Source: Nymphaea colorata (Eukaryota; Streptophyta; Magnoliopsida; Nymphaeales; Nymphaeaceae). Taken from it: DNA of 64,000 nt. The stretch lies in assembly GCF_008831285.2 (NCBI RefSeq), contig NC_045146.1:12477289-12541288 (forward strand), given 5' to 3'. Shown here in pieces: positions 11,341 through 55,260 of this stretch. Position 1 is the first letter of the stretch, and every line of letters begins with the position of its first letter. Made by a program: the position numbers and the translations under genes. Under the pieces are notes generated by a model that saw only the letters and a list, made by a program, of their open reading frames with translations, did no database searches and was not told the DNA's origin.

Positions 11341-14300
11341 ATGGCGAGGAATTTCTGCGACGCGAGGATCCTTCTTCTCGCCGCAGCGGCCGCCTTCATT
11401 TTCATCCAGGTCGGCTACTATCCTTCGGTATTTTTCTGTCCAGCGTCGAATTGTTAATGTGAATGTGAATCTTCAGTTGGAATGTCGTTCATTTGGTTCC
11501 TTCTCAGTTCATTTGGTTCCTTCTCATCATCGCTGTGTCTGTTTGGCTGTTTCTGCTGCTTTTAGTTAGGGATGCGAGTGCGCGAAGGGACGATGAAAAT
11601 TGAGTCCGAATAATTACTTATTTCTTTGGATCTTACATTTCCTATTTTACTTTATGACGGCCCGTTGTTGTCAATTGTTGTGAAACGGAGCCTTCTTACA
11701 AAGTATTCAGGGGAGATTGGTGATCCGTTTCGAGAATAATTTGGCAGAGCATAGGATAGAAGTTAGGGTTTTATTCATTTGATTGGGTTGCGTTGGAGTA
11801 ACTCAAAGATCTTTTTCACATTCCACATGCTTCAAGTTCAGTGGGTGATTATCGGGGATGGTCGTAGAAGTTTTAAAGGAAGCAGAACAGTCACAAGGTG
11901 TCATCTGCATAAGGAGTAGTAGTCATGGATGTGGTCTAAATCATTATAACACCTACATGCATTTGATGAATTTTAAAAAGCAATGGCTCATAAACATCCT
12001 ATAGCTTAAACTTTTAAAATCATGCCTTTCATGAAAAATGTGATGCAAGAGTTATTTTTTGAGGAAAAAAAAAATCTTGCATACATCTATAGAGTCTGAT
12101 TTAGTCAACATACAAAATACATCAAAAGATAAAACAAATAACAGTTGTCCATATCATATGGAACTGTAGGAGGAACCAACTTTGCTCATGTACAAGTAGA
12201 TATATATGTTTGTGCATGTAGCATATGTACATACAAAGTATGTATGTACACATAAGGCCCTTAGATTCTGTTATCTACAGATGCACTCTATAACATCTTG
12301 AACACCTGAACCTAATGACTTCCATGTTGGTAGTCTTTCCTTTTTTACTACATGGATGCAAATTTCATATCAAGAAAACCTATCAATTGACACATTACAT
12401 GCTCTAATATGTAATAAAATTTTGTAAGCATATAAAATTGAACAGCTTCAACCTTTTGGTTTTAAAAATCAAATTAATGCATCAAAAAAATTTGCATATT
12501 ATGTGTTCGTTCATGGGTGCATAGACATGTTGAATTCCCCAATATAGCTGGATTTGTGATTTTTTTTTTTTTATTTCATATTAACAATAGAATGCATATC
12601 TTCAGGGGAATGTTTTTCAGAAATGGAGATCTAATAACTCTGCATGTGCATTTATGTGCCTACATATAGTAATCCATATTTGTTGTAGCTACATTTTTTG
12701 AGACATCCATATTATGGCCAAATGTGGTGAATGACCAAAAAGGGACTCTGCATGAAGAGATACTAAAAAGATAAAAAATTATCTAGCCTGCCTTTTCTCT
12801 CTAGAAAGAAGGCAGTCTCCTATGTTTTCCATACCTTTTACACAAGTAACCACAGATACGAAAAGATTATGCCATACTGCATGCAATTTTACACACAAAA
12901 AATTTGAAATACAACATCATAGGTGTAATTATAGAACTTTCTTATGGACATGGAAAAAGATGCTCATTGTACTCAATGAACGAAAGAATGAATGACTAAA
13001 TATTATCTCTAATATACACTGGATTCAGGAAATTTAATTTCATAATAAAAATAAATTCTGATAAGGAGAAACTAAGACTATTTGTTGGATTTAATGAACT
13101 TCTTAACTTATTTCTTTTAGATATATTTATTTCCTTGGGTGGATTCCTTAACAAGACAAATTTTCTTTCCGCAAGTTATGTTGCTAAGAATGCCATCTCA
13201 ATCTTCTGTCTTATGAATGCCAAAATGCTGAAATTCTACATTCGCAGTCTTATGTTTTTTTCTTTTTATATCCATGGCCATGGTAAATCTAAAACTGGTA
13301 TCTATTTAAAATACAGGATGTGTACAAAGATGAACGAAATAATTAGATCTTGGAGGTGCTTATTTCTTAATTTGAGTTGTAACAATGATTTTCTTACTTC
13401 ACTGCAGATGCGTCTTTTTGCAACACAGTCGAAGTATGCAGACCGTCTCGCAGCAGCTGTATGTTGTGTGTCATTTGTTTACTATTGCTGGGAATTTTTT
13501 GTTTATGTAGGTGGTGACAATTTTTTTCATGCTCTGATTTGTATTTCTGTTTTCACTGGAGGATCCTCCTCACAGCACACAAACCACCCACTACAGACCA
13601 CAATCCTTTCCCCACTAAAGAAGAAAAGGGTGGGAAAGGAGGAGGAGAAAGAAAAAGGAAAACAAATTGTTCCATCTCGTGCTGTATTCATTTTATCCAC
13701 TATTAATTAGCTTCTCCAAATACATTATTACATAAGAGTATCAGCTTAGTTGAAAACTTGAATTTAAGGTTTTTGGAGCATGTTCTTGTTCATGTGATAA
13801 GGATAGCTTCTGCTTATGGATCATGCGAGATAAATAGATTTAGTTAATTCTTTGTGTTTAATGAACTTTGATCTGCACTATGTCTTCTGTGGCTTGGTGA
13901 TGAACTAAGAAGATTTTGGAACAGCATAACCTTAAAAGAAGCATCTTTTGCTTACATTTTTTATCTACAGAAAGTCTTTATTCCTTCCACTAACCATCCG
14001 TTCCCAGTAATCAGGTTGTGCTGTCTGAAATGACACTGATAACCATGAGGCCAAAGTTCTGTAGACTGAATACTTATTCACTGAGTCAAGGAACATATAC
14101 ATGCTATTTGTAATATCTGGGATAGCTATTTGTGATTTTCTCAGAAAGAGGCATTCACTTCAGATAGAAACAATAGCATGATTTGGTAAAGAAACAGTTT
14201 TCCACTTTTGTTTTCAATTAGTTTACATTTTTCTAGAATGATGTGCTGAGCTTTTTATTCCATGTTTCACGGTCTTTTTTTCATAATTTAGAAATTTGAC

Positions 14301-15741
14301 CTTTTCTCGGGCAGTGTCGTTGTCATGTTCTTCCATTGTCTCTGTTTTCTATTTGGTTGATGTTTTGGCCCATATGGTTTAGTTATTGTTTGGTGGGGTG
14401 GGTTTTTCTCCCCTCATTCTTGCTTCACTTGTTCTGATGGTTATCTTAGAGTGATCATGTTTTGCTTTCTTGAAGAGACCATGCAAGCAATTACTTGAGC
14501 ACAATGTATCTCTGATATTGCACAAACAGGTGGAATCTGAGAATGGGTGTACAAGTCAAATGCGGTCATTGATCGATCAAATAAGCATGCAGCAGGGAAA
14601 GATAGTTGCTCTAGAAGGTCTCTCTTTTTCCAGACTTGCCTATTTCTACCATGGCCTGCCAACTATGCATATGTGATGGAAATTATAGCTGTGACATTTC
14701 TGAAGTTTGCAACTTTGTCATGGAGATAATCCAAACAAGTGTATCATTTTGGTTTTTATTGGCAACAAGTTCTCATAGGCCAATGGACCCTCCTTTTCTA
14801 GTATATTAACAATTCAATTTCTTCTCACAGCTAAATGAACTTCTCGATCCTTGTTGCTTTTATTGCTTCTCTTTCCCATGTGAGATATGATGCTGATTTC
14901 TTGTATTTTCATACTATGAGCTTCAAGTGTAAATTGCCTTTAAATGGTATCGGTCTTTTTTCTAAGGAAGCCTCCTCTCTCACTATCTTGATCCCGTCTC
15001 TATGATGTGGGGAAGGTGGCTACTTTCTTTTCAACTATAGAAGGGCCCCTCATTTCCTTCATTATTTGGGCAGCCATAAAGAGGGTTCTAGGCTTCTAGC
15101 ACATGTCTGCCCCACTCCCACACCGAGCTCATGCTCCTAGTTTAGTGGGTTTGAAACATGCGTTTTAGCAGTTTCAGTTCCTGTCTAAAAAAGATCAGAA
15201 ATTGTGTCACAGACTCACATGGGTATGGTTATGGATGCCAATATGGTACAGGTGCTATATATACATATAGCTAAACTTGTAGAATAATAAAAGTTATTAA
15301 AACAGATCAACAACATGACCTGATTTTACAATAGATATTCATATTTATATGCATCTGAACATGAAAAACACTGTCAAAAAGTTGTTAAAAATTTGATTTT
15401 GAACAAAAGATGATCAGACTTCAAAATCAGATTATAAGGGCCAATTGCCAAATCAGTTCATAACTTCTCGTATGATAAAACAACAGTAGCGGATAAGCAT
15501 AAACAAAATATGATAAAACAAGCTATTAACAAACAAATAAGATTATAATACCCAATCAAATCATATTCATATAATATTCACACTAACATACTTGGTAAGA
15601 TAAAAAAAATAAAAGAAAACCCTAAGTGTTGGATGAGTTTGGACTCGGCAAAATTGCACCGATTCAGTCTTGGGTGCATTGACTGTGTTGACACTTGTAC
15701 TTCTCCCTTTTAAAGTTGTTAGAATGTTAGAATGTATGCAT

Positions 15742-15788
<47 letters not shown>

Positions 15789-18700
15789 TTGGATATTAGG
15801 ATAGTTATGTAATTTTTCCTTTTTTATGTATTTTTACTTTTCCCCTTTTACCCCCTTTCTTTTTCTTTATTCCCTAAAGGTACTAGTCCCAACGGCTAGA
15901 TTTCTAGCCGTCGGAACTAGTCCCAACGGCTAGCCCTCTTCTTGCTTTTGTTCTCTCCTCTATAAATAGTGTAGATTCCCCTCTTTTTAGCTTATGGCTT
16001 TTTAAGCCACTTCTTGTTTTATTGTTGAAGATCAATACATGTTTCTTTATCCTCTTGTTAGAGGTCTCTTGTGTATTGCCTTGTTGAGTTGGTGGGAGAT
16101 TCAAGAGTGATATTTTGAAGTATTTGCCTTGTTGGGCCTGATTTACAAAAGTGTCCATATTACATAGATTTGGAACCATGATAACTACTCACTTAACCAA
16201 TCTCCTATCCCTTCTAATCCTTCAATGATTTCCGAAAATCTGTTATAAGGGTCTAAAGACTCTAAACTTTCTCATAATCTGGTGTTACAATAGTCACCCT
16301 TTGCATTATATAATCTACATGGCTTCTCTCTGCGACTTTTACATTTTATGAAATTGGTCAAAAGGTCGTGAATACATTTTTTTCATTTATCTCCCATTTA
16401 ACAATGCAATGACAAAAATTAATTTGTGACTATGATACATGTGTGTATGCGTGTGTTCCTCAAAACATGGGTAACATGGCCAACTAGTAGAAGACAAGTA
16501 CAGGTTTCATGATACTGTCTGTCCAAGCGTGCTACAACTTTGGGCCCCTCATTTAATGAATGTTCATGGGTGATTCTTTTGTCTGTTCAACATGAATAGT
16601 TATGGTATCTTGATTCTTTTCTTATTGTTGTTTCTTTGTTGAGTTGCATAGTTTACAATTGTGTGATTGACTCACAGCTTTTTTAACTATTCAATATCCC
16701 TTTCATTACTTGGTTTTCCCTTCAATTGCAGAAGAAAAAAGGCGCCAAGATGAGGAGTTTGGGCAATTGAAGGCTCTTATCCACGAACTTGAAAGTCTGT
16801 CCTTAGTTTTTCCTCACCTTTTACAGATAATACGCTGCATGATTATACACAAAGCTAGATTGTGACTCCTTACCTATTTCATGCATCACACAATGTGTTG
16901 TTGCCTCGTAAATGTGCCTCCACTAATCACGTATCTTTCCATGCAGGAAAAGGCATGAACCAGCTGTTTAATACAATAAAGGTGAAGATAGATGCTATCC
17001 TTCCTGATACATTCATAAGATGTTTTTCTGTTCTCTTGGTTTGAGATAAGGCACTGGTGGAATTCCCAATCTGTCCATTACTTTTTGGAGTCACTTTTTT
17101 GCAAAACACTTTCTGACACTGCAAACTGTAGTCACTTTTACTAGCACTTGTATTTGCTAAAATGTAATAACGTGCATTAATCTCTGTCTGAATTACAGGA
17201 GCCAGTGGCTGCTGTTGTGATAATGGCTTGTAATCGTCCTGATTATTTAGAAAGGACAGTTCAATCCATACTGAAGTATGTCCTTATTTTCTACTTGATC
17301 TGCCTTATACGATATTCATTAGTTCATTTTTTGGTATCACATTTGTCTGCTGATGCGCATATCTATTTTTCAGGTATCACAATCCTGTTGCTTCAAAGTT
17401 TCCACTTTTTATATCTCAGGCATGTTCTATTGTAACTTCTATAACTCGTTTAAAGTTCTTGTGTTAATATTTCTCTCTGCAATGTGAGAGTTGTTGGCCT
17501 GCTTGTTCTAATGATGTGAGGGCTTTAATGTACTTGTAGGATGGAACGAATCCAGATGTCAAAAGTAAAAGTCTAAGTTATGGTGAAATACAATATATGC
17601 AGGTCAATTCTCCACTTAATTAGTTTTGATAGTTAAGATGAATTTGATAGCTGTTATCAGTTATCACTAACCTCCTTCACTTGCATGCATATGAAGAATC
17701 TTATTGTGAAATGTTTCTGTAGTAAAATTTTCCGCTGGTTAAATGAAATGGCATGAGATTTCTGTCTTATTTATTTTGCATCTTATACAAGATCTTTTGT
17801 TCATGATCGAAAAATCTTTAAAAGCTAGAATATTATTAGGATGGAAAAATTTGGATGCCATTTTATTTTAATTAGGTGACAGAATTTACTAGGGTCTTGT
17901 ATTTTCTTAGTGCTAGACTTAATACTTTTATTTACCATATTGTTAAAGGAACGGTTTTGTCGCCAAATCTAGTGATAGATGGCCATAATTGAGTTATGGT
18001 GTTCAATATTTTTTAGTTTTGTTGCTTGAATCATCACACTTTGTCCACACTTAAGTAGCATGATTTTAAGGTCAAAGACAACTATTGTTTACTTTTCTAA
18101 TGGTTGCGTAATTGCAAGCCTCTGTGTTTTCACCAATAAGATACATGGTTAACATGCTTTCAGGTGTCTGACTGATTACTGAATGTATATTTAGGTTTGG
18201 TCTGTCATCTTTCGGCCATGACTTTTCAAAATTTTCTGTATTTTTTTTCCTAAAAATCTGAGCCTGGTCTTCCTCCCCTCTCCCAAAGTTCCTTATTAGT
18301 GTTGAGATTAAAATTGATTCTTGCTCTGGTCGAGGTTCTGTTGGTATTATGTTCACCACTTCCAGTATCATAAACCAGAGCTCTATTGTTATTTCAGGGG
18401 ATTATGGTATGGATGTATGAGTAGATCTGGAAGTGGCATGAGCCTTATTGATATTCTCTTCTTTGGAACCTTGATCCTCTACCTTGATATAGCATGAAGT
18501 CAAGGATTCCTGTAATAGGACCTGAATGTTATGTTTGCATGTGAGCATAATACATTGGTTCGGTTGCTACTGGAAACTTCACTTTTCCAAACTTTTCATG
18601 GAAAGTATGAGCTTCTGAAATCAGTCCTTTTGTAAGTAGGAACACCTTGACATTTGAAGATTCAGATATCAGGTTGTGTCCTAAACAAAATTTGTCAACT

Positions 18701-21700
18701 GTTTCTTCAGACAGCCTGCTAACATTGTGCTGATTTTTGTTAAAACCTCACTAGGGGATATCCTTCATGTAGAAAAACATGTTATTATGGAGGATCTGTG
18801 AATCTCAGAAATATTTTATCAGCTGAGGGCAGATAGAGCAAAGAAATGCTATTCATTATAAGTTTTATACTGTGATAAAGAAAAAATACCTAGTTTGTGT
18901 GGTTAAGTAATGGATGTTCTTAATGAAATTGATAAAAACTCTTTCAAATTCATCCGACTCTATATAAAAAAAGTAGCTAGAAGCTACTTGGTGTCTTAAC
19001 ATACTTGTAATGGCAAATATGTCATTTATGCAATTGGCTATACTTGTAATGGCAAATATGTCATTTATGCAATTGGCTATGTCCTAGTTTCCGACATTTC
19101 ATCATGTCAGTTCAACCTGTTTTTTGAGTTATTGTAGGAACCACGTTAGCAAAACTGAGTTCTCGGGAAAAAGATGATTCATTGTTTACGTAGTGTCTGG
19201 ATAGAAATGCCAACTTCTAGTACACATGCATATACATATTTATGTACATGATGATATTCATGCCATATCAATAACTAAGTACAATCATGAAGGGGTCCTC
19301 TTTCATATCTAAAAATTTGGATGTAAGAAGTCAATTCTGAATTGATGCATTTTTATGCTCGCTGACTATCTAGTTTTATCCTTGCTTACAATATCTTAAG
19401 ATCAAACTTCATTTTTATGACGAGTCCATTTATGGTAGTACAAGATTTAAGTGTTATCTCATTTGCATATAACATGGTTCGTTCTTTTAAGATTCCTAGC
19501 TAAATGTTATTTTTTGTGGATACTGATTATATCTTTTTTGATACAGCATCTGCAACTTGAACCAGTGAAAACAGAAAGGCCTGGTGAAATTATTGCATAT
19601 TATAAAATCGCAAGTAAGTTGGCTGCCTCAAGAGCGTAGTTTCAGGACTAACTTAATTTTTTCCTAGCATAGTTAAACTTTTTCTCTTTCTTCAGATCAC
19701 TACAAGTGGGCCTTGGATCAACTATTTGGGAAGTATAATTTCTCACATGTAATTATATTAGAAGGTAAATGCAGTATATTTCATGTAATTGTAGAAAATG
19801 TATTGAAGATTTCTCATTCAGTTGGCCTCAGTGTCTCCTTTGTGATCCTTTGTCCATTTTATGTGGTCTAATTTGCTGAAGAAACCTATTTTTGTGGAAG
19901 ACAGATGACATGGAGATTGCCCCAGATTTCTTTGATTATTTTGAGGCAGCAGCGAAGCTCCTGGAGAAGGATAAGTATGTGCAAATTAACCTTGCAATTT
20001 GTTGTCCTTAAAACGAGAAGTATGCTAAGACCCATTCTAAATTCTCCTTTTTTGGTTATTTCAAAAGAACAATTATGGCTGTTTCTTCTTGGAATGACAA
20101 TGGACAGAGGCAGTTTGTAAAAGATCCTGGTGAGAATTTCATGCTTTAGTTATGGACCTTTTCACGCTTTAGTATCAGTGCCTGATGCAGCCATTTCAGG
20201 TTAAACAATCAGTTGGTCGTCTTCTGTCTGAATTTCTTGTGATACTTTCTGCAGAAGCTCTTTACCGCTCAGATTTTTTTCCTGGACTTGGATGGATGCT
20301 GTCAAAGTCTATATGGGATGAATTGTCCCCAAAATGGCCAAGAGCATATCCTTTCTATTTAAATTCTTTTATTGGGTTAAATTCTTTAGTTTTGGACCTT
20401 GCTTTTGTGTTCTATTTTCTGGCATTTTGCAATTCTTAACTGGGCATACTTACTGGGATGATTGGCTGAGATTGAAAGAGAACCACAAGAACCGGCAGTT
20501 TGTCCGCCCGGAAGTTTGCAGAACATACAATTTTGGGGAACATGTATGCTTACCTAATTCATCTGTTTGCTGCTAACGTGTTATCCAAAAGGGTACCAGC
20601 TTGAATGATAGACAATAGCTTATCATTTTGTCAATGTGATCATATTGAAAGCTTTATAATAATTAATTGTAGAATGATAGAATCTTTGTGTTCCTGTCTG
20701 AGCGATCATTCATCCTTCCATCATATGTTGTGTTTCTATGCAACTAGTTATCATTAGATTTATTTTGTTGTACTTGTAATTTTTTTTTTAAATCTCAAAG
20801 GAGAGTCCTCAAAATCAGATTGAAGTGGCCATTGATATTTGTTTTGGAAAAATTTTCCTTTTAGATAACAATTATCACTAATTGGTCAGATCACCTTCTG
20901 TTGCCTTTTTATCATCTTCATCCACATACTTTGAGTGTATGGAATCTATGGATGCATTTTCGTTGATGATTGTTTCCATTCCTTGGCAGGGTTCAAGCAT
21001 GGGACAGTTCTTCAGGCAGTACCTGGAACCAATCAAGTTGAATGATGTTCATGTGTGTAATGGTTATCCCATTTAGAAAAAAAATTGCCCTTTCTGGTAT
21101 TTGATGTCTTATATGTTTTTCTCTTTTTTCTAAATGAAAGGTGGACTGGAAGTCTATGGATTTAAGTTATCTATTGGAGGTAATGCCTTCTCCTTCAACC
21201 TTAAAGCATAAAATTATTGGACAAATTCCTCTCTGTCCTCCCTACTCCACCACAAACATTTGACAAATTATTGAGTTTGAAACTGCAGGGAAATTTTCTG
21301 AAGCATTTCAGTTCGCTTGTATCAAATGCTACCCTTGTTCAAGGAACTAATGTTGTGTTGAAGGCTTACAACATTGATGGTGATGTCCGGATACAATATA
21401 AGGATCAGGGGGAATTTGAGCAAATTGCACGCCAATTTGGAATTTTTGAAGAATGGAAGGCAATTGTGCTGATTCTCTATATGAATTTTACTTCCCAAGC
21501 ACTTTCTCAAATTCTGCATAAATACTAAACTATCTTAAAACTAAATACTGAATGCAGTTGTTAGGAATTCTCAATGCCTTCTGTAAGTAGCATCCTAATG
21601 ACATTTGGTCCCTCTATCAGGATTTCACCATCGTAATGACTGGTGATACTTAGCATATATAACGCAAATATGCATTTAGCTAGAATCCTTGAGAGTTTCC

Positions 21701-23207
21701 AAAACTTGAAGAAAAAAGTATCCTGGCAGCTAATACAAGATTGACACAAACAAGCTTTATACCATTATTTTCATGTTCCTTTAAATTTTGGTCTTTCAGA
21801 TGATGCAGATAAGCAAGATTAGCAATTCTGATTGATTTAAATTGAAGGATAAAGTTTTTGCTCCTCAATTAATTTCTAAACTTTTATATAAGGCCTCTGT
21901 TTCTTTTCTTTTCTTTTTTTTGGTTAAACTTTTCTCTTTTTTTCCTAATCTATTTTTTCTTTTTAATTTTCTTTATGAGAATAGGAAGACAATGCATGTT
22001 CTGTTTTCATGTTGACCAATGTTTGAAGGTTTATGATGTCTTTTTTTCCATGAATTGAATTTTGAAGGTTGATTTGCTTCAATTTGTGTTGGTCTGAAGA
22101 ATTGTACCCTGGTACATGTGATACATCCGACTATTATTATTGTTGCATTGAATTGCCGTTGTTTTTCACTCGTGATACTGTATTTATTTAACAATCAAAT
22201 TTGAATTTTGAAGTTGCTGATACGTCATGTATGTAGTCAAAAGAGTGCCCAGGTATGCCTAGTCCCTTGGCAACCATTTTTCTTTACTTGACTGTAGTAC
22301 CTAGGCAACCACTTCAGAAGCTTTTAGAAAACTTTTCTCCTTTTTTTTTCTATTTTTTCCTTTATTTATCTCGTTTCTCTTTTTTTCGTTCTTCTCCTTC
22401 TTAGTTCTTCTCTTTTTTTTTATATACCTTTTTTCTTTCTGGCCTGGGTGCTGCCTATCAGTCCCCTTTCAGGTCTATGGCTTAGGCTTGCCTAATGTTT
22501 TTCACTACATAGTAAATGATATATAGTACTATACATGTATGTATTATGCGATTATGAGTACCTAATATATACTACATCTATGTTTTATTTATGAATATGT
22601 GTATGTACAAAGGCATGTGTGTGCGCAGTGCCCATGAGATAATGCTATGGTGCATCAGGTTGCTTACTGCCACCTAAAGAAACTATGATGCAACAAGCTT
22701 TGATATGTCTATTTATATAATCTATATGATTGAATCATGATTTAAACTGTTCTTCTGACATAGAACCTGTCTTTTCAGAGAACAAATTTTTCATACAGTT
22801 TGAGTTGTTCATTTTTTGATCTTGTAAAACTTGTAGGTAGGCAACATAGTTACACGATGTAAACCTTAAGTTTTATTGAATATAATAGGAGGTCATAGTT
22901 GATTGGCATAAAGATTAACCAAGCTGTAGGTATTGATATTCTCAAGGTGAGTCCTGCTGCACCTTGAGGCCAGAGCACCCTAACATTACTTGTATAGTAA
23001 TTATAGTAATGCACCTAGTGCACTTTTTTTCTCATTTCCAGAAAAAGAGAAGTACAGCTCTTATGACTTAATCTTTTTATCAATTTGCAGGATGGAATAC
23101 CCAGAACTGCATATAAAGGAGTAGTTGTGTTTAGATGGCAGACTGCAAGACGGATATTTCTTGTGGGCCCAGATTCCCCTCAGCAGCTTGGGATCAAAAG
23201 CTTGTAA
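11341..23207 (+). CDS. GNTI: Alpha-1,3-mannosyl-glycoprotein 2-beta-N-acetylglucosaminyltransferase (GnT I), 18 exons, 444 aa
   Basis: This Golgi type II membrane enzyme adds the first GlcNAc from UDP-GlcNAc to Man5GlcNAc2 and so opens complex N-glycan synthesis. Exons: 11341-11409, 13408-13458, 14530-14617, 16732-16794, 16947-16981, 17199-17275, 17374-17419, 17540-17602, 19547-19613, 19696-19764, 19905-19974, 20068-20129, 20255-20345, 20450-20543, 20990-21052, 21141-21179, 21289-21459, 23091-23207. All join in frame to 444 aa, the length I recall for Arabidopsis GnT I. A short basic tail (MARNFCDAR) precedes a membrane anchor (about 10-23) and a charged, coiled-coil-like stem (about 24-100). 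The catalytic domain starts near 103 (EPVAAVVIMACNRPDYLERT). The metal/nucleotide motif EDD is at 209-211 in ILEDDMEIAPDFF. WDDW at 286-289 matches the region of the catalytic base in animal GnT I. Most introns are GT-AG, but introns 7 and 17 appear to be GC-AG and intron 13 is AT-AC. Confidence 0.96.
15105..15195 (+). repeat. Short copy of the 35.4-36.0 kb repeat family
   Basis: Inside GnT I intron 3. Words such as CCCACTCCCACACCGAGCTC and GCTCCTAGTTTAGTGG, followed by a GCAGTTTCAGTT stretch, match the start of the units at 35.4-36.0 kb. It is a truncated, diverged copy. Confidence 0.5.
15714..16190 (+). mobile_element. Probable solo LTR or LTR fragment, Ty1/copia-like
   Basis: Inside GnT I intron 3. 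It starts near TGTTAGAATG and contains a TA microsatellite. It also has an AACGGCTAG inverted and direct repeat block, a TATA-like TCTATAAATAG and a downstream transcribed-looking stretch, the layout of a copia-type promoter LTR. No internal coding region is present, so it looks like a solo or truncated copy. The ends are approximate and no target duplication was confirmed. It looks old. Confidence 0.4.
15744..15783. repeat. (TA)n microsatellite
   Basis: About 20 TA units in GnT I intron 3, within the probable LTR fragment. Confidence 0.95.
17420..17539 (+). other. GnT I intron 7, probable GC-AG intron
   Basis: The upstream exon ends ...ATATCTCAG and the intron begins GCATGT; it ends TACTTGTAG before GATGGAACG. 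Only this junction joins Phe-Ile-Ser-Gln to Asp-Gly in phase 0, as the family requires (FISQDG). The nearest GT (CAT|GTTC) would break the frame. Confidence 0.8.
19002..19080 (+). repeat. Exact 39-bp tandem duplication
   Basis: The unit starting TACTTGTAATGGCAAATATG occurs twice head to tail without a mismatch in GnT I intron 8. The identity suggests a recent event or an assembly duplicate. Confidence 0.9.
20346..20449 (+). other. GnT I intron 13, U12-type AT-AC intron (104 nt)
   Basis: The donor reads ATATCCTTTC, the classical U12 AT-AC 5' site. The branch region reads TTCTTAAC, close to the U12 consensus TTCCTTAAC. The intron ends GGGCATAC about 10 nt after the branch adenosine, inside the usual U12 spacing. 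Removing it joins GC to T to restore Ala284 and gives PKWPRAYWDDW, as in the family. No GT-AG choice keeps this conserved sequence. Confidence 0.93.
21460..23090 (+). other. GnT I intron 17, probable GC-AG intron (1.6 kb)
   Basis: The exon ends GAATGGAAG and the intron begins GCAATTG; it ends CAATTTGCAG before GATGGAATACC. The family sequence here is EEWKDG, which needs the GC donor. A GT six bases downstream (ATT|GTGCTG) would keep the frame but insert Ala-Ile between Lys and Asp. The GC choice is preferred because of conservation and the better AAG exon end. Confidence 0.7.
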
Positions 23208-32617: not shown

Positions 32618-33453
32618 GGTGAGAAGAGGAGGAGAAAAATATCCTTCCTGTACTTCAGCTGGATTCGTCTGTAAATTGGGTAGAGCCCCGTTTTCCTCCT
32701 AATTTCTATCTTCACGCCCCTTTATGCTAATCGGTTTGAGGAAGCTTGCTGAAATTCGTGTGTTGCTTTCTCCATTTATCCTTCTTTCCTTCCTTCCAGT
32801 ACCAAGGTAGACGTGGGGATTCGGCAGATTGATTGGTCCTCTCTAACGAAATTGTTTACTACTTTGATCGGCTTTTGTGATGTTCTGCTGAGAGAAGGTG
32901 ACATAGTGTTCTTTTCTGGAGTTTTTGTCGTTTTGATGATTTGGGCATCCTTTGTTGGAGATGATTTTGTAGACTTGTGTGTGCGCGTTCTGGTTGGTGT
33001 TAAATTGAAGCGTTTTCGGATTGTCCTGTTTTGGTTCACCATGCTGGGTACTGGTTCCATTTTATGGTTCTTCTTGTATACGTTTGGTGACATCGCTGGT
33101 CACGCGTTCGCTTTCTCTGCACTTTCTGTTTCGTAAATGAACCAGTCGACTTTGGAAGTCTAGCTTTTTGGGCAAATATTTTCCATCTTTAAGGCTGATG
33201 TCTGTGATACCGTTTACGCGTATCTTGTTTTGATTCATTTCCCATGAAATGGACGAACTAGTGGTTGTGCCATTTTCATTTTAGATGGAACTTCGGAAAT
33301 CTTAGCGAGAGATCTGCCATTAAATAAGGTTGCTGTAATTTTATTGGCTTTCCGTACATCTGTGTGAGTCTTGGTTGTTTCAGCAGTCAAGCGTCTTCAA
33401 CTATGAAAATTTCTTCTAATTTCTTGCATTTGTTTCTGATGTTTAGGAAAGAA
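32540..33453 (+). promoter_or_regulatory. Leader of the U-box gene with a probable 5' UTR intron
   Basis: A CT microsatellite (about 32582-32614) marks a typical plant 5' UTR. A donor-like CCAAG|GTAGAC at about 32807 and a clear acceptor TGTTTAG|GAAAGAA at 33446, seven bases before the start codon, suggest a leader intron of about 640 nt. An open frame (32813-33136) lies inside this putative intron and is hydrophobic low-complexity sequence; I do not regard it as a gene. Confidence 0.45.
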
Positions 33454-36400
33454 ATGGCTGATGGTTGGAGTGGTAGTTCCGATCTTGATTGCCAGTCCGA
33501 TGACAGCTATATCTACGGAAGTAGGCACATAGAGCCGATATATGACGCATTCATTTGCCCTCTAACTAAGGAAGTCATGCGTGACCCTGTCACTCTAGAA
33601 AATGGCCAGACGTTCGAGAGAGAGGCAATTGAGAAATGGTTCAGGGAATGTAGAGAGAATGGGAGGAGACCTATGTGTCCATTAACATCTCAAGAACTGA
33701 AGACTACTGAATTAAACCCCAGTATAGCTCTTCGCAACACAATAGAAGAATGGTATGCAAGAAATGAAGCTGTTCAGCTTGATATCGTTAAGAAGGTGTT
33801 ACATGTGGAAAGTCCTGAGAAGGAAGTGTGGCGCTCATTGAGGTTCATCCAACAATTATGCCAGAAAAGAAGAACAAATAAACGTGTTATCCTCAATGCT
33901 GAGTTGATTCCTAAGATTGTGGACATGTTAAAAAGTGGTAGCAAGAGGGTGAGATATAAAGCACTTGAAACACTTCGGATAGTGGTCGAAGGGAGTGATG
34001 ACAATAAGGTTATTCTGCAATTTACTAAAGATCTTTACCTACCATTTGTGTGTGTGAGAAACAGACACGCTTATATATATACTTTTTGAATCCCTACAGG
34101 AAGCTTTGGCAGAAGGAAATAATGTACGTACTATCGTAAAATTCTTATCACATGAACATTCCCAGGAGCGGCAAGAAGCAGTATCTTTATTGTACGAGCT
34201 TTCGACATCTGAGAGCATGTGCGAAAAGATTGGTGCAGTGAACGGGGCGATCCTTTTGTTGGTTGGACTGTCGAGCAGCAAGTCGGAGAACGTGTCAACT
34301 ATTGACAAGGCGGAGAGGACATTGGAGAACCTGGAAAATTGTGAGACAAATGTGAAACAGATGGCTGAAAATGGTAGACTTGAACCTCTCCTTAAACTGC
34401 TCCTTGAAGGTACTTCACATCTTATCATGCTTCTCTGAAAGTTGTCCACAAAATGTCTCCTTCATTCCTGTAGTTCTCAACTTGTACCTTGCTTCAAGTG
34501 CCTATGGCTGGTTTCGCTTGCAGTGCCCATAAACTGATTAACTGAACCTTTGCTGTGTTGTTTGCCGAATTCTTGGAAATTCATTCTTGCTTTTCCATCC
34601 AATGATTCTCAGCTCAATTCTGCTCTTTATGGATCCTGGTAACTAGTTCATTACGTTAGAATTCTGAAAAAGCTTATCTTCTTGATTTGGAAGTGGTTAA
34701 ACACTTGGATTCATTATCGGGAACATGTACAAGCATTTGTATCCAACAGAAGACAAACCTGTTACTTGCTAGGGGTCCATGCATTATTACTCTAATGTGT
34801 AAAGAAAAATTTCCAACAGATACTCACAGTGAATTTATATGCACTTGTATATGTCTCGTTTTTAAGTCAGCCTTGAACGCGGTGCACTTGGTCTTCGAGT
34901 AGCAGAACTAAGGTGCATACTATATGTCCCAACCATGGAAAAATCTCTATCTCAAACACAGATATGAAAGGCTAACAGCTGAATTCCAGATCATATCTAA
35001 AGCTGAACAGTCAATGACTCAATATATAGAATAAAAGTTTCTAGATGTTGAATGCCTTATGAAAGCGTTATTTAGAGTCTGTCCATACTGCTTAAGCAAA
35101 TTTGTCCTAGTTTAATTTTGCTTAGACATGATAAGATGACCTAAAGGATGTTTTCGGAAGGTTAGGTCTCTTTAAGATGGTTGTGTCCATGCCGCAAGTA
35201 GCAATTTAAAAAATTTAAAACAAATAAGGAAGCATCAAAAACTGAATTTCAGCATGTTGTCATTACATTTTCAGGTTGATGCTTTTAAAGACTGTGCTAT
35301 TGTGTGGTGATTAGGATATACATATACATATAGACCATGGTTAGAAATATTGGCAATATATGAAAAATTATTGCAATATTGCTACTATAACAACTTGATC
35401 CATTCCCACACCGGGTTCAGGCTCCTAGTCCAAAGGATCTCAACCTGCCTCATAGCAGCTTCAGTTTCAACCCAAAAATGCTAGGAACCAAAGCAATCAA
35501 TCACTTAATAACTCCCTTTCTAAGTTCCCCAAGATTCATCACAACTTTTGATACATGAGTAAACTTTTGGAGTGTTACAATCCACTCTCTTTAAGACACA
35601 TGTGTTTGTGTGTGTGGGACCCTAGGTCTTAGTGTTAATTGGCTCTGGTACCACTGTAACGACTCGGTTTGGCGGATCCCAACCTAATAGCCCCAAAAAA
35701 GTTAGAAACCAGGACAATCAATCACTTAACAACGCTTTTGATAAGTTTCCCATGTCCTCACAATATTAGATGCAGAATCAAACTTTGGGGTGTTACAATC
35801 AACGGTCTCATGTGGAACCTAGGTCTGAGACTGACTCTTATACTACTATAACGACCCGACCCACTTCCACACTCGGCTTGGCCTTTGGTCTGGTAGATCC
35901 CAACCTACCCTGTAGCAGCTTTAGTTTTAACCAACAAAGACTAAAAACCAGGACAACCAATCACTTAACAACCTCATTTTTAAATTCCCCAAGATTCCCC
36001 ATAATTGTGGATACGAGATTAAAGTTTTGGAGTGTTACAACCACTAAAAAAAAGTGGCATGTTTTTATTAGGAAATGCTATGATATATTTACCTTTTAAG
36101 AGGAATTCCTTTCTTGTATGTATTTTAAATGAATGCTTCCCATTTCTTGTTCTTTTTCAATTTAAAGCCTATTTTGAATATTTGTCACCATTTTTGTAAG
36201 AAAATTAATAGAAAGTCATGATTTCATTATTTATTTGTTCTTATTTTTGTTTTTAGTTTTCCAAGAATTTCCCCGGAAAAACAATTTTGCTGAAAAGTAC
36301 CTTATGCAGACCTTCCAAATAAATCCCTGAGAATGATATCTGTGACAATGATGTCGATATATGCATATATGTATTTAATGTTGCAGCCTAACATATTATT

Positions 36401-39400
36401 TTCATCATGTAACCATATATCCCTAATTATTTGTACAGCAATGAGGAGTGAGGCTAAGGACAATATGAAAGCAAGGGGTTTCTTGAAAAGAGTGTTACAA
36501 AACCAGCTAAGCGATAAAAATATTTTACCAGCTAAGAAATAGAACAGACAAAATTTTAGATCTTCAAAATCTTGGAAGTATAAAACATTATTATTTTTGA
36601 ATTTTTAATAAGTGGTTTTATGATCCGAAAAGAAAGTGAAGATAGGTAACGTGTATATGTTGTTAATGTATGATTCTCTCTATTCCATTCTCCTGATTTA
36701 ACTATTAACATATCTCATTGACTTCTCATTTGTTAGCGGAATGATCAACTTGCCTTTCTTGGACCATTTGCGCTCTAGGGAGGAGTAGGGATAGATAATA
36801 TTCTATTTCTGTATGCAACTAGTTTCTGAGAATTGCCTGTTTCTGTTGCATGATGTGCTAAGTGAAACATTGTTATGGCATCTTGGCTGCAAAATGATGC
36901 TAATAATTATTGATGATCTCATCACATACTATTTTCTTATTTACCAACTTTTTTTTTATCAAGTAATAATCTTCCTAACTATTTAAAGTAAGAAGTAGTC
37001 TATATGGTGAAGCTCGGATTTCTTCCTTGTAGAGGGAAGGAATGGGCCAGGGCTAGTGGAAGAACTTTGACATACTCCAGTCTCCATTAAATGTACAATG
37101 TAGAAATTTCAATATGCCATGATCACTGCTAGAGGCTTTAACTTTTGTTACCATCTCTTGTTTGAGAATGACATTATTGGTGAGGAACATTTTTCAGTTA
37201 TTAGCGTATTGGAATCCATTTGGTTTCACAAGTTGGGACCTTATATGAACTGACTGCAGTCAATATTTGTATGATGCCCCATTTGTTTTTGGGACCTTAT
37301 ATGAACTGACTGCAGTCAATATTTGTATGATGCCCCATTTGTTTTCTTTTACTACAATGTGGGTCAGGTAAAGGTGGGGCACAAACTTGGGTTCGGGGTG
37401 ATCACACCTATGCAAGACCGTAGGTTTTAGTAAAAAGTTCTGGATCAGGAGGATCACATCACCACCTGGTTCTTATGTGGGTTTGCTGTTGTACCTATAG
37501 TGTGCTCGTCTTCTCTAAAATTTAGTTGTTCTTTTTTGTATATTTTGTCCAATTACCATAAAGAAAGTGTTCCAAGTTTTTATTATTCATTTTGTAAGAT
37601 GTATCTATCTTGTATTTGTTGTGCATCTAATCATATTTTTTTTAAGAAAAATATACTTGGTTCTCCCACTTTAATACCTTGTCAACGGACAGGTTCGACA
37701 GGTTCTATTGTCAGGTTAGAGTTTAGACTAGCAGCTTCCTTTGAAAATGCACCTTACCTTTTGTTCTGTTCATGAATTGGACGTTACACATTTCATATGA
37801 TTAGTGAAAAATTTCATATTCTTTATATGCCTTCTTTCATTTGCTTCCAATTTAAATTTTGTGTCATTCTCATGGCTAACAACTAATATACAAATTAACA
37901 TAATTATTGTACTTTTCCATTTTATAATGGAAGGTATCATTTGAGATTTCTCTATCGATTTCAGGGTCAACAGAAACCAAGATTGATATGGCTACATATT
38001 TGAGCGAGATACCTCTGACTAATGATGTTAAGGTACTTGTTGCAAGAAGAGTGGGAGTAGCACTTGTTAACATCATGGGAAGTGGCAGTCCTCAGGCTAG
38101 AGAATCTGCTTTGAAGGCACTTAACCAGGTGTCATCATGTGAGGCCGGTTCCAAGATTCTCATTGAGGCTGGCGTCCTCCCTCCCCTTGTGAAGGATCTA
38201 TTCACTGTTGGTTTCCATCATCTACCAATGAAGCTAAAAGAGGTTTCAGCAACTGTTCTTGCCAATATTGTCAGCTCAGGGTTTGACTTTGACTCGATCC
38301 CTCTTGGACCTGATGGCCAGACTCTTGTATCTGAAGACATAGTTCACAATCTCCTCCATCTTATCAGTAACACCGGACCTGCTATAGAGGCCAAGCTTCT
38401 TCAGGTGCTTGTTGGCCTGACTGGTTCTTCTGCAACTGTTGACAATGTCGTCAATGCCATCAGGAGCTCTGGTGCCACTATCAGCCTGATCCAGTTTATT
38501 GAAGCTCCACAAAGGGAACTAAGACTTGCAGCCTTGAAGCTTCTTAGCCACCTGTCAACTCACATGGGTCAAGACCTTGCTGATGGCCTTAGGGCCACAA
38601 CAGGACAACTGAGCGGCCTATTCAGGTTGATCTCACTTGATGGTAGTGGGGTCACAGAAGAGCAAGCAGCTGCTATTGGCGTATTGGCTTATCTTCCATC
38701 TGAAGATTCCAACCTCACTAGGAGGTTACTGGATGAAGGCATCTTCAAGAGTGTCATTGATCAGTTGAACAGAATTCAACTGGGTGAGGTACGGGGTGGC
38801 CGCTTTGTGACACCATATACAGAAGGTCTTGTATCTGTCCTCTCACGAATCACTTATGTGCTGCAAGAAGAACCAGATGCAGTAACATTTGCACAGGAGC
38901 ACAACCTTGCATCTTTGTTCATGGACCAGCTTCAAGCCAGTGGGCTTGATGAGGTTCAGCGGGTATCAGCTTTAGCACTGAAGAACCTTTCTGCGGAGTC
39001 GAAGAGGTTGAGTAGACAGCCGGAGGTGCCTAGTCCTGGTTTATGTGCGTCAGTCTTTTTCTGTTTCAATAAACCACCAAGTATAATCGGTCTCTGTCGG
39101 CTTCATCATGGAATCTGTTCTTTTAAGGAGAGCTTCTGTCTTCTTGAAGGAAAACATTGTATATCCAAGTTGGTCTCACGCTTAGACCACAGGAACGAGA
39201 TGGTAGCACAGGCATCACTCGAAGCACTTTGCACGTTGATAAGTGACAATGTTGATGTTGAGCAGGGAGTTCAGGTCTTATGTGAAGCAGAATCTATCAA
39301 AGAAATTCTGGAAATCTTGCATGAGAACAAGACAGAAGGGTTGAGGCACCATGCTGTTTGGGCAGTAGAGAGGCTTTTGAGGTTTGAGGATATCGCCTAT

Positions 39401-39550
39401 GAGATGTCTACCGATCCTAATGTGAGCTCAGCACTAGTAGATGCCTTCAAACATGGAGATTTTCGGACACGTCAAATTGCCGAGAGAGCACTGAAGCATA
39501 TTGACAGGATCCCAAACTTCTCCAGTGTATTTCCGAAGCCTCCTCGGTAG
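33454..39550 (+). CDS. PUB44: U-box domain-containing protein 43/44-like (SAUL1 type) E3 ligase, three exons, 816 aa
   Basis: This is a RING-like U-box ubiquitin ligase with ARM repeats. In Arabidopsis the SAUL1/PUB44 group sits at the plasma membrane and restrains early senescence and immune responses. Exons are 33454-34008, 34100-34409 and 37965-39550, all GT-AG and in frame, giving 816 aa (Arabidopsis relatives are about 800). The U-box is at about 30-104, with ICPLTKEVMRDPVTLENGQT and later MCPLTSQELKTTELNPSIAL. ARM-type helical repeats fill about 115-816, ending in ERALKHIDRIPNFSSVFPKP. The insertion SPGLCASVFFCFNKPPSIIG in the C-terminal part is typical of this subgroup. An upstream in-frame start at 33364 was rejected because a splice acceptor at 33446 places it in an intron. 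Intron 2 is 3.6 kb and holds repeats. The choice between PUB43 and PUB44 as orthologue is not decidable here. Confidence 0.93.
35387..36050 (+). repeat. Three diverged tandem units of a plant retroelement-like repeat
   Basis: Inside U-box gene intron 2. Units start near 35395, 35660 and 35850. Each shares ATCCCAACCT, a GAAACCAGGACAATCAATCA-like word, CACTTAACAAC, CCCCAAGATTC and GGGTGTTACAATC. They are joined by the GGCTCTGGTACCACTGTAACG-type boundary often seen in decayed plant LTR elements. It is old and non-coding. A fragment is also at 15.1 kb. Confidence 0.55.
37235..37345 (+). repeat. Exact 56-bp tandem duplication
   Basis: The unit beginning GGGACCTTATATGAACTGAC is repeated head to tail in U-box gene intron 2. 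I see no mismatch over the shared length. Confidence 0.9.
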
Positions 39551-54521: not shown

Positions 54522-55031
54522 CTAGTTAACTGTGACCTTGCCCGCCATGCCAGCACCTTGGTGGGGAGCGCAGTAGAAAGAATACTCGCCCTTGGTGCTC
54601 AGGGTCACCTCATATGTCTCCCCAGGCCCATTCAACAGAGCGTCCTCGGGCATGGAGATGGCGCCGGCGTCAACCCCAGATGGAACCTCATCCTCATCAA
54701 ACACCACGTTGTGAGGGAACCCTGCATTGTTCTTGAAGGTGATCTTCTCCCCAGCGGACACTGTGAACGCACTGGGCTCGAAGACGAGACCGCCATCGTC
54801 GCTGCCGAGCTTCACATCGATGGCCAGGGCATTGCTGGCCAGCACCAAACTTGCGGCAGCAGCGGCTGCAGCCACACCAACGTCCTTAAGGGAAGCTCTG
54901 ATGGCGCCGGCCTTGACGGCTCCTGCGCTGCCGCTGCTGCATTGCTTCGCGCAGACAGTCTTGGGGGTCTCTGCCTTGAGGCCCGTGAAGGAGGAGATGG
55001 CAACGGCTGCAGATGCAAAGGTGGTGGCCAT
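54522..55031 (-). CDS. PETE: Plastocyanin precursor, chloroplastic (intronless, 169 aa)
   Basis: Plastocyanin is the soluble type I blue-copper protein of the thylakoid lumen that carries electrons from cytochrome f to photosystem I. The ORF is a single exon of 169 codons, as is usual for nuclear PETE. Residues 1 to about 47 are a stromal transit peptide rich in Ala, Ser and Thr. An Ala-rich hydrophobic thylakoid signal follows and ends ASNALA before the mature start IDVKLG at residue 71, giving a 99-aa mature protein, the standard length. The four copper ligands are present: His107 (GFPHNVV), Cys154 and His157 (YCAPH), and Met162 (GAGM), equal to H37, C84, H87 and M92 of the mature protein. 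The acidic patch DEDEVP is intact. Base composition is GC-rich compared with its surroundings, as expected for a highly expressed plant gene. The gene is convergent with the LPA3-like gene. Confidence 0.98.
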
Positions 55032-55260
55032 TGGTTCTCTGATCTGTCTGGCTCTGAGAAGGATGAACAGAGCAGAGCGGTGCTTGGGAATGGATTGCTG
55101 ATTGGAGAAACAGCAGGGAAGGGTGGAGAGGGATATATTGCAAGTGAGTTTGGGTAACGGGTGTAAAGTATGGGGCTGGAAGCTGCTTGGTTATCCACTC
55201 GCAATTGCTTCTCATTGGTTGCTTGGGATGTTGATGGATGACGTGGCTCAAGAATTGCCG
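55032..55260 (-). promoter_or_regulatory. Plastocyanin promoter and 5' UTR
   Basis: Read on the minus strand, a TATA-like AATATATCC lies at 55132-55139, about 100 bases before the start codon. A GGATAAC word (I-box-like) lies near 55190-55196. A CCAAT box is at 55214-55218 and a CCACGTC (ACGT core, G-box-like) is at 55240-55246. GATA and ACGT elements are common in light-driven photosynthesis promoters. The functional reading is inference. Confidence 0.5.

Follow-up and report, generated by a model that had tools for sequence, protein, structure and literature searches.

An intron with AT-AC ends interrupts the active-site coding region of a plant N-acetylglucosaminyltransferase I (GnT I) gene in the Nymphaea colorata DNA analysed here and, judging from its sequence, we put the probability that it is U12-dependent and that the gene is functional at about 0.95. 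The window, meaning the whole stretch of DNA analysed, is 64,000 nt long and corresponds to positions 12,477,289–12,541,288 of the forward strand of NC_045146.1 (assembly GCF_008831285.2). Intron 13, as it is in our gene model (Table 1), lies exactly where the initial annotation had placed it and is most likely to be an ordinary U12-type AT-AC intron.

Table 1. Positions in the window of the GnT I gene, intron 13, its predicted splicing signals and the flanking exons
Feature	Position	Strand	Details
GnT I gene, coding span	11341..23207	+	444 aa in 18 coding exons; 17 introns; assumed start codon
Coding exon 13	20255..20345	+	ends LSPKWPR plus GC of Ala284
Intron 13, predicted U12-type AT-AC intron	20346..20449	+	104 nt, phase 2
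5' splice site ATATCCTT	20346..20353	+	8/8 vs published U12 consensus (PMC2831892)
Predicted branch site TTCTTAAC	20433..20440	+	7/8 vs TCCTTAAC; one mismatch, C to T
3' splice site AC	20448..20449	+	second AC 4 nt downstream, 20452–20453
Coding exon 14	20450..20543	+	starts with T of Ala284, then Tyr285, WDDW (286–289)

The exons of the gene were assembled from splice signals and homology, with known plant GnT I sequences as a guide to their borders. The coding sequence obtained is 1,335 nt including the stop codon and contains no internal stops, and the start is assumed because the 59 codons that precede the chosen ATG showed no in-frame stop. The predicted protein matches the Pfam GNT-I family (PF03071) with a score of 621.1 bits against a curated cut-off of 25.4, residues 14–442 corresponding to positions 2–433 of the 434 in the profile. 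Three of the four distinct PDB sequences that it also matches are GnT I chains (E 4e-85 to 6e-85), the other being POMGNT1 (E 3e-35). The solved GnT I chains (PDB 1FO8/1FO9), from rabbit, are the same enzyme and allow a comparison of protein sequence only. In this alignment LEDDMEIAPDFF, which includes the EDD motif, and PRAYWDDW are opposite VEDDLEVAPDFF and PKAFWDDW, respectively. The EDD and WDDW motifs of GnT I both have roles in catalysis, and WDDW begins its acidic pair with the catalytic base, Asp291. At the junction of exons 13 and 14 the solved chains read PKWPKAFWDDW, and the alignment is gap-free there. The gene is predicted to encode a full-length plant GnT I, a sugar-transferring enzyme of the Golgi.

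The GnTI.A gene of Nicotiana tabacum, with 19 exons over 12.5 kb (PMC7873608), likewise has many exons and is similar in size to the gene described here, in which the 18 coding exons span 11.9 kb. Fourteen of the 17 introns in our model have GT-AG ends, two (intron 7, 17420–17539, CAG/GCATGT; intron 17, 21460–23090, AAG/GCAATT) have GC-AG ends and one, intron 13, has AT-AC ends. Three of the 17 are, in all, without GT-AG ends.

Joining 20345 to 20450 gives PKWPRA-YWDDW. The intron had been described as interrupting the Ala284 codon directly before WDDW; the codon is indeed split, as GC/T, but Tyr285 lies between Ala284 and W286, the first residue of the motif, and that part of the description was off by one residue. 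Intron 13 starts with ATATCCTTTC and ends with GGGCATAC, the base at +5 is C, and its predicted branch site fits TCCTTAAC/TTCCTTRAY at seven of eight positions. The candidate branch point is A20439 or A20438, at a distance of 10 or 11 nt, respectively, from the final base of the intron. Either A can serve as the branch point in U12-type introns, and the optimal distance from the branch point to the 3' end has been quoted as 11–13 nt (PMC3584512); the distance here is at or just under this optimum. The second AC is a competing acceptor, 14 nt from A20439. A+T richness, which has been reported to help the splicing of plant U12 introns (PMC5932401), is 70 % in intron 13 (73/104) vs 55 % in its two flanking exons. 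A polypyrimidine tract is not expected in U12-type introns; the last 20 nt of intron 13 contain 11 pyrimidines, against 9–16 in the remaining introns, and this content does not set it apart.

A search of the assembly (408 Mb in 783 contigs; 44 scored of 31,276 first-look candidates) gave one full-length match to the U12 snRNA family (88.9 bits; the gathering score is 53), and a Rfam scan of the 64-kb window gave no match at the gathering score. Within this U12 snRNA, GTAAGGAA pairs with seven of the eight bases of ATTCTTAC, with the branch A bulged and one wobble, and with all eight bases of the consensus branch site. The initial annotation had described a U12-like start, a branch region and an AC about 10 nt further on, and all three were recovered. 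Its assignment of the intron to the U12-dependent AT-AC class also appears to hold, on the strength of the 5' splice site, the branch site and its short distance from the AC end, the poor match to U1 and the predicted pairing with U12 snRNA. The U11/U12 di-snRNP would then recognise ATATCCTT and TTCTTAAC together and U4atac/U6atac.U5 would complete the splicing, and the joining of exon 13 to exon 14 would restore the active-site Ala284-Tyr-Trp-Asp-Asp-Trp.

The other introns of the gene served as controls. Compared with RTATCCTT, intron 13 has no mismatches at the 5' splice site, intron 14 has one, and the remaining 15 introns have three to five. Branch-site mismatches are fewest in intron 13 (one), followed by intron 14 (two) and the rest (three or four), and the U1 match of intron 13 (3/9) is the lowest in the gene, the other 16 introns scoring 5–8 of 9. 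None of those 16 is within one mismatch at both the 5' splice site and the branch site, and the closest is the adjoining intron 14 (20544–20989), which starts with GTATGCTT (7/8), a single base (+5, C to G) away from the minor GT-AG consensus. Intron 14 was considered as a second minor intron and rejected on the basis of the G at +5, a U1 match of 6/9 and a branch site with two mismatches, 23 nt from the end. A U2-type assignment is preferred on these features, and the similarity of its donor is possibly due to chance or to the conversion of a former minor intron to the major class.

How often such signals are expected by chance was estimated from 100 order-2 Markov sequences. The sequence ATATCCTT alone is found four times on the + strand and twice on the – strand of the window, the expectation being 2.38 per strand; the copy at 18758, which falls within intron 8, was not considered further. 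When a near-consensus branch site and an AC within 200 nt are also demanded, the expectation falls to 0.12 per strand, and two such pairs were seen on each strand, both from a single donor with two ACs. The set on the minus strand (ATATCCTT...TTCTTAAC...AC) runs from 51096 down to 51016 or 51013 (81 or 84 nt), and no coding context could be recognised by eye in the frames flanking it. Motifs alone would, because of this set, be weak evidence, and the U12 signals of intron 13 draw their weight from its location at a junction that is demanded by protein homology. At a fixed junction, and with the composition of the GnT I gene itself as the model, the chance of an 8/8 donor is 4.7e-5 and that of an AC together with a branch site with no more than one mismatch is 7.8e-4. 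The joint chance, as the product of these two simulated frequencies, is approximately 3.6e-8, and a chance pairing of the motifs at this junction was rejected on that basis.

To what extent the junction itself is constrained was examined by enumerating the alternatives with all other introns fixed, allowing the last exon base to be at 20260–20499 and the next exon to start by 20539, with an intron of at least 39 nt and GT-AG, GC-AG, AT-AC, AT-AG or GT-AC ends. The frame remains open to the natural stop for 137 of the enumerated junctions. Only 11 of the 137 retain both LSPKWP and WDDWLRLKENHKN, and they comprise five AT-AC, five GT-AC and one AT-AG junction, with no GT-AG or GC-AG junction among them; within this set a protein of 444 aa is obtained solely from the junction in Table 1. 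Sliding that junction by up to 6 nt each way revealed one other position (–1) that gives the same mRNA, with CA-TA ends. The AT-AC ends predicted for intron 13 are forced by the protein homology. It is conceivable that the true sites are GT-AG or GC-AG and lie elsewhere, and that the actual protein departs from our homology-based model, given that four GT-AG and three GC-AG junctions do preserve the frame and WDDW, but this is most improbable as all seven fail the double test, losing LSPKWP and keeping intron sequence as coding, and the gap-free alignment of the solved GnT I chains through PKWPKAFWDDW is also against it. GT-AG, GC-AG and retained readings of 20346–20449 were rejected from the enumeration together with the modelled translation products.

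The class of an intron cannot be read from AT-AC ends alone, and U2-type AT-AC introns exist; those of sodium channel genes carry G at +5 (PMC2831892). Though intron 13 might in principle be spliced by the major (U2) spliceosome in the same way as these rare introns, we consider this extremely unlikely, since it has C rather than G at +5, its entire 5' 8-mer is that of the U12 consensus, its branch site departs from consensus at one base, and it matches U1 less well than any other intron of the gene. Nor is it at all likely that this GnT I copy is untranscribed or non-functional, which would leave intron 13 without a role, as 444 codons are free of stops and frameshifts across 17 introns, 16 of which have GT-AG or GC-AG ends, the Pfam match extends over almost the whole protein, and there appears to be no replacement for the gene elsewhere in the assembly (see below). 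Our reading is that intron 13 is U12-dependent and that the gene is functional, and the production of a working enzyme would then probably depend on the minor spliceosome.

If intron 13 were kept in, translation would end at the TAA (20437–20439) that lies inside the branch site, which is the first in-frame stop and comes after 314 aa; no active enzyme would be made and the transcript would probably undergo nonsense-mediated decay. Use of the second AC causes a frameshift and a stop after 288 aa, and skipping of exon 14, exon 13 or both leads to stops after 300, 259 and 271 aa, respectively. All five of these modelled products end before WDDW. Decay of the failed transcripts is likely because further exon junctions remain downstream of each of the five stops.

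The search of the assembly with the GNT-I family gave five matches (8/8 candidates scored), all of them in the GnT I gene of the window. With the GnT I protein as query, all 20 candidates were scored; of the 15 matches obtained, 14 are exons of this gene and one is on contig C2. The match on C2 was considered as a second GnT I locus and rejected, as only residues 187–209 match above chance within the surrounding 8,001 bases. It is a lone copy of exon 10 (L014:3858–3926), 87 % identical, with one internal TGA and followed by a GTAAATG donor, and is a stray gene fragment. These exon-by-exon searches, which could miss a diverged copy, revealed no further intact GnT I gene in the 408 Mb assembly. 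No relatives were found in viral contigs or in contigs of prokaryote genomes, and a search of plasmids with the sequence from exon 13 to exon 14 returned five records, the best three of the five at E 3. Because no second intact gene appeared, it is plausible that complex N-glycan synthesis in the whole plant would depend on the predicted splicing of intron 13. The stronger proposition, that the tandem AC acceptors and the branch-site stop together make all five failed or shifted events null, with no second intact gene detected that could compensate, seems unlikely to us.

Minor AT-AC introns are well known in plants, and intron 13 of the GnT I gene looks like a new example. Zhu and Brendel reportedly surveyed the U12 introns of Arabidopsis. 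AT-AC introns make up 26 % of Arabidopsis U12-type introns in one tabulation (Table 2 in PMC7367187), and a share of 4.8 % is quoted from another survey (PMC5932401). Intron 4 of CBP20 was U12-type AT-AC in the ten plant species studied (PMC5932401) and, like intron 13, it is in a plant coding gene, has AT-AC ends and a U12 branch site, and is A+T-rich. It differs in belonging to another gene and protein position, and both its conservation and its splicing have been studied. The U12-type introns held in U12DB, ERISdb and IAOD (PMC7367187) have the same class of 5' splice site, branch site and ends, and intron 13 may already be catalogued in one of these databases under a GnT I locus. No paper tying GnT I, or its pathway, to minor splicing was found in the open-licence literature, and words that begin with 'glucosaminyl' are absent from the main texts of PMC2426677, PMC2831892, PMC7367187, PMC10639083, PMC3422263 and PMC4892727.

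The kind of intron is ordinary, and the interest of intron 13 lies in the testable link that it offers between minor splicing and complex N-glycans. If it is spliced as predicted, complex N-glycan synthesis would join the plant processes that rely on minor splicing, minor-spliceosome mutants would be predicted to have a glycan profile measurably shifted towards the high-mannose type, and glycan loss would be a possible contributor to the phenotypes of such mutants. A severe growth phenotype has been reported for a rice gnt1 insertion line, unlike Arabidopsis cgl1 (PMC7873608). Gene predictors that allow only GT-AG introns would also go wrong in the part of this gene that encodes the active site.

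Several further features were noted in the window. Within the GnT I gene, intron 3 includes a segment (15716–16160) that begins with TGTTAGAATGTT, contains the TATA-like CTATAAATAG and looks, by eye, like a retrotransposon solo LTR, and intron 8 includes a perfect 39-nt tandem duplication (19001–19080). A perfect 56-nt duplication is found at 37233–37345. On the + strand, the frame at 33328–34089 contains a U-box domain (PF04564, 63.4 bits) and that at 37928–39550 contains armadillo repeats (PF00514, 35.4 bits); both probably belong to a single plant gene for a U-box E3 ligase (33328–39550). In a single open frame on the – strand (54522–55190), a copper-binding domain of the plastocyanin type (PF00127, 123.6 bits) follows a long N-terminal stretch, as in a chloroplast plastocyanin precursor.
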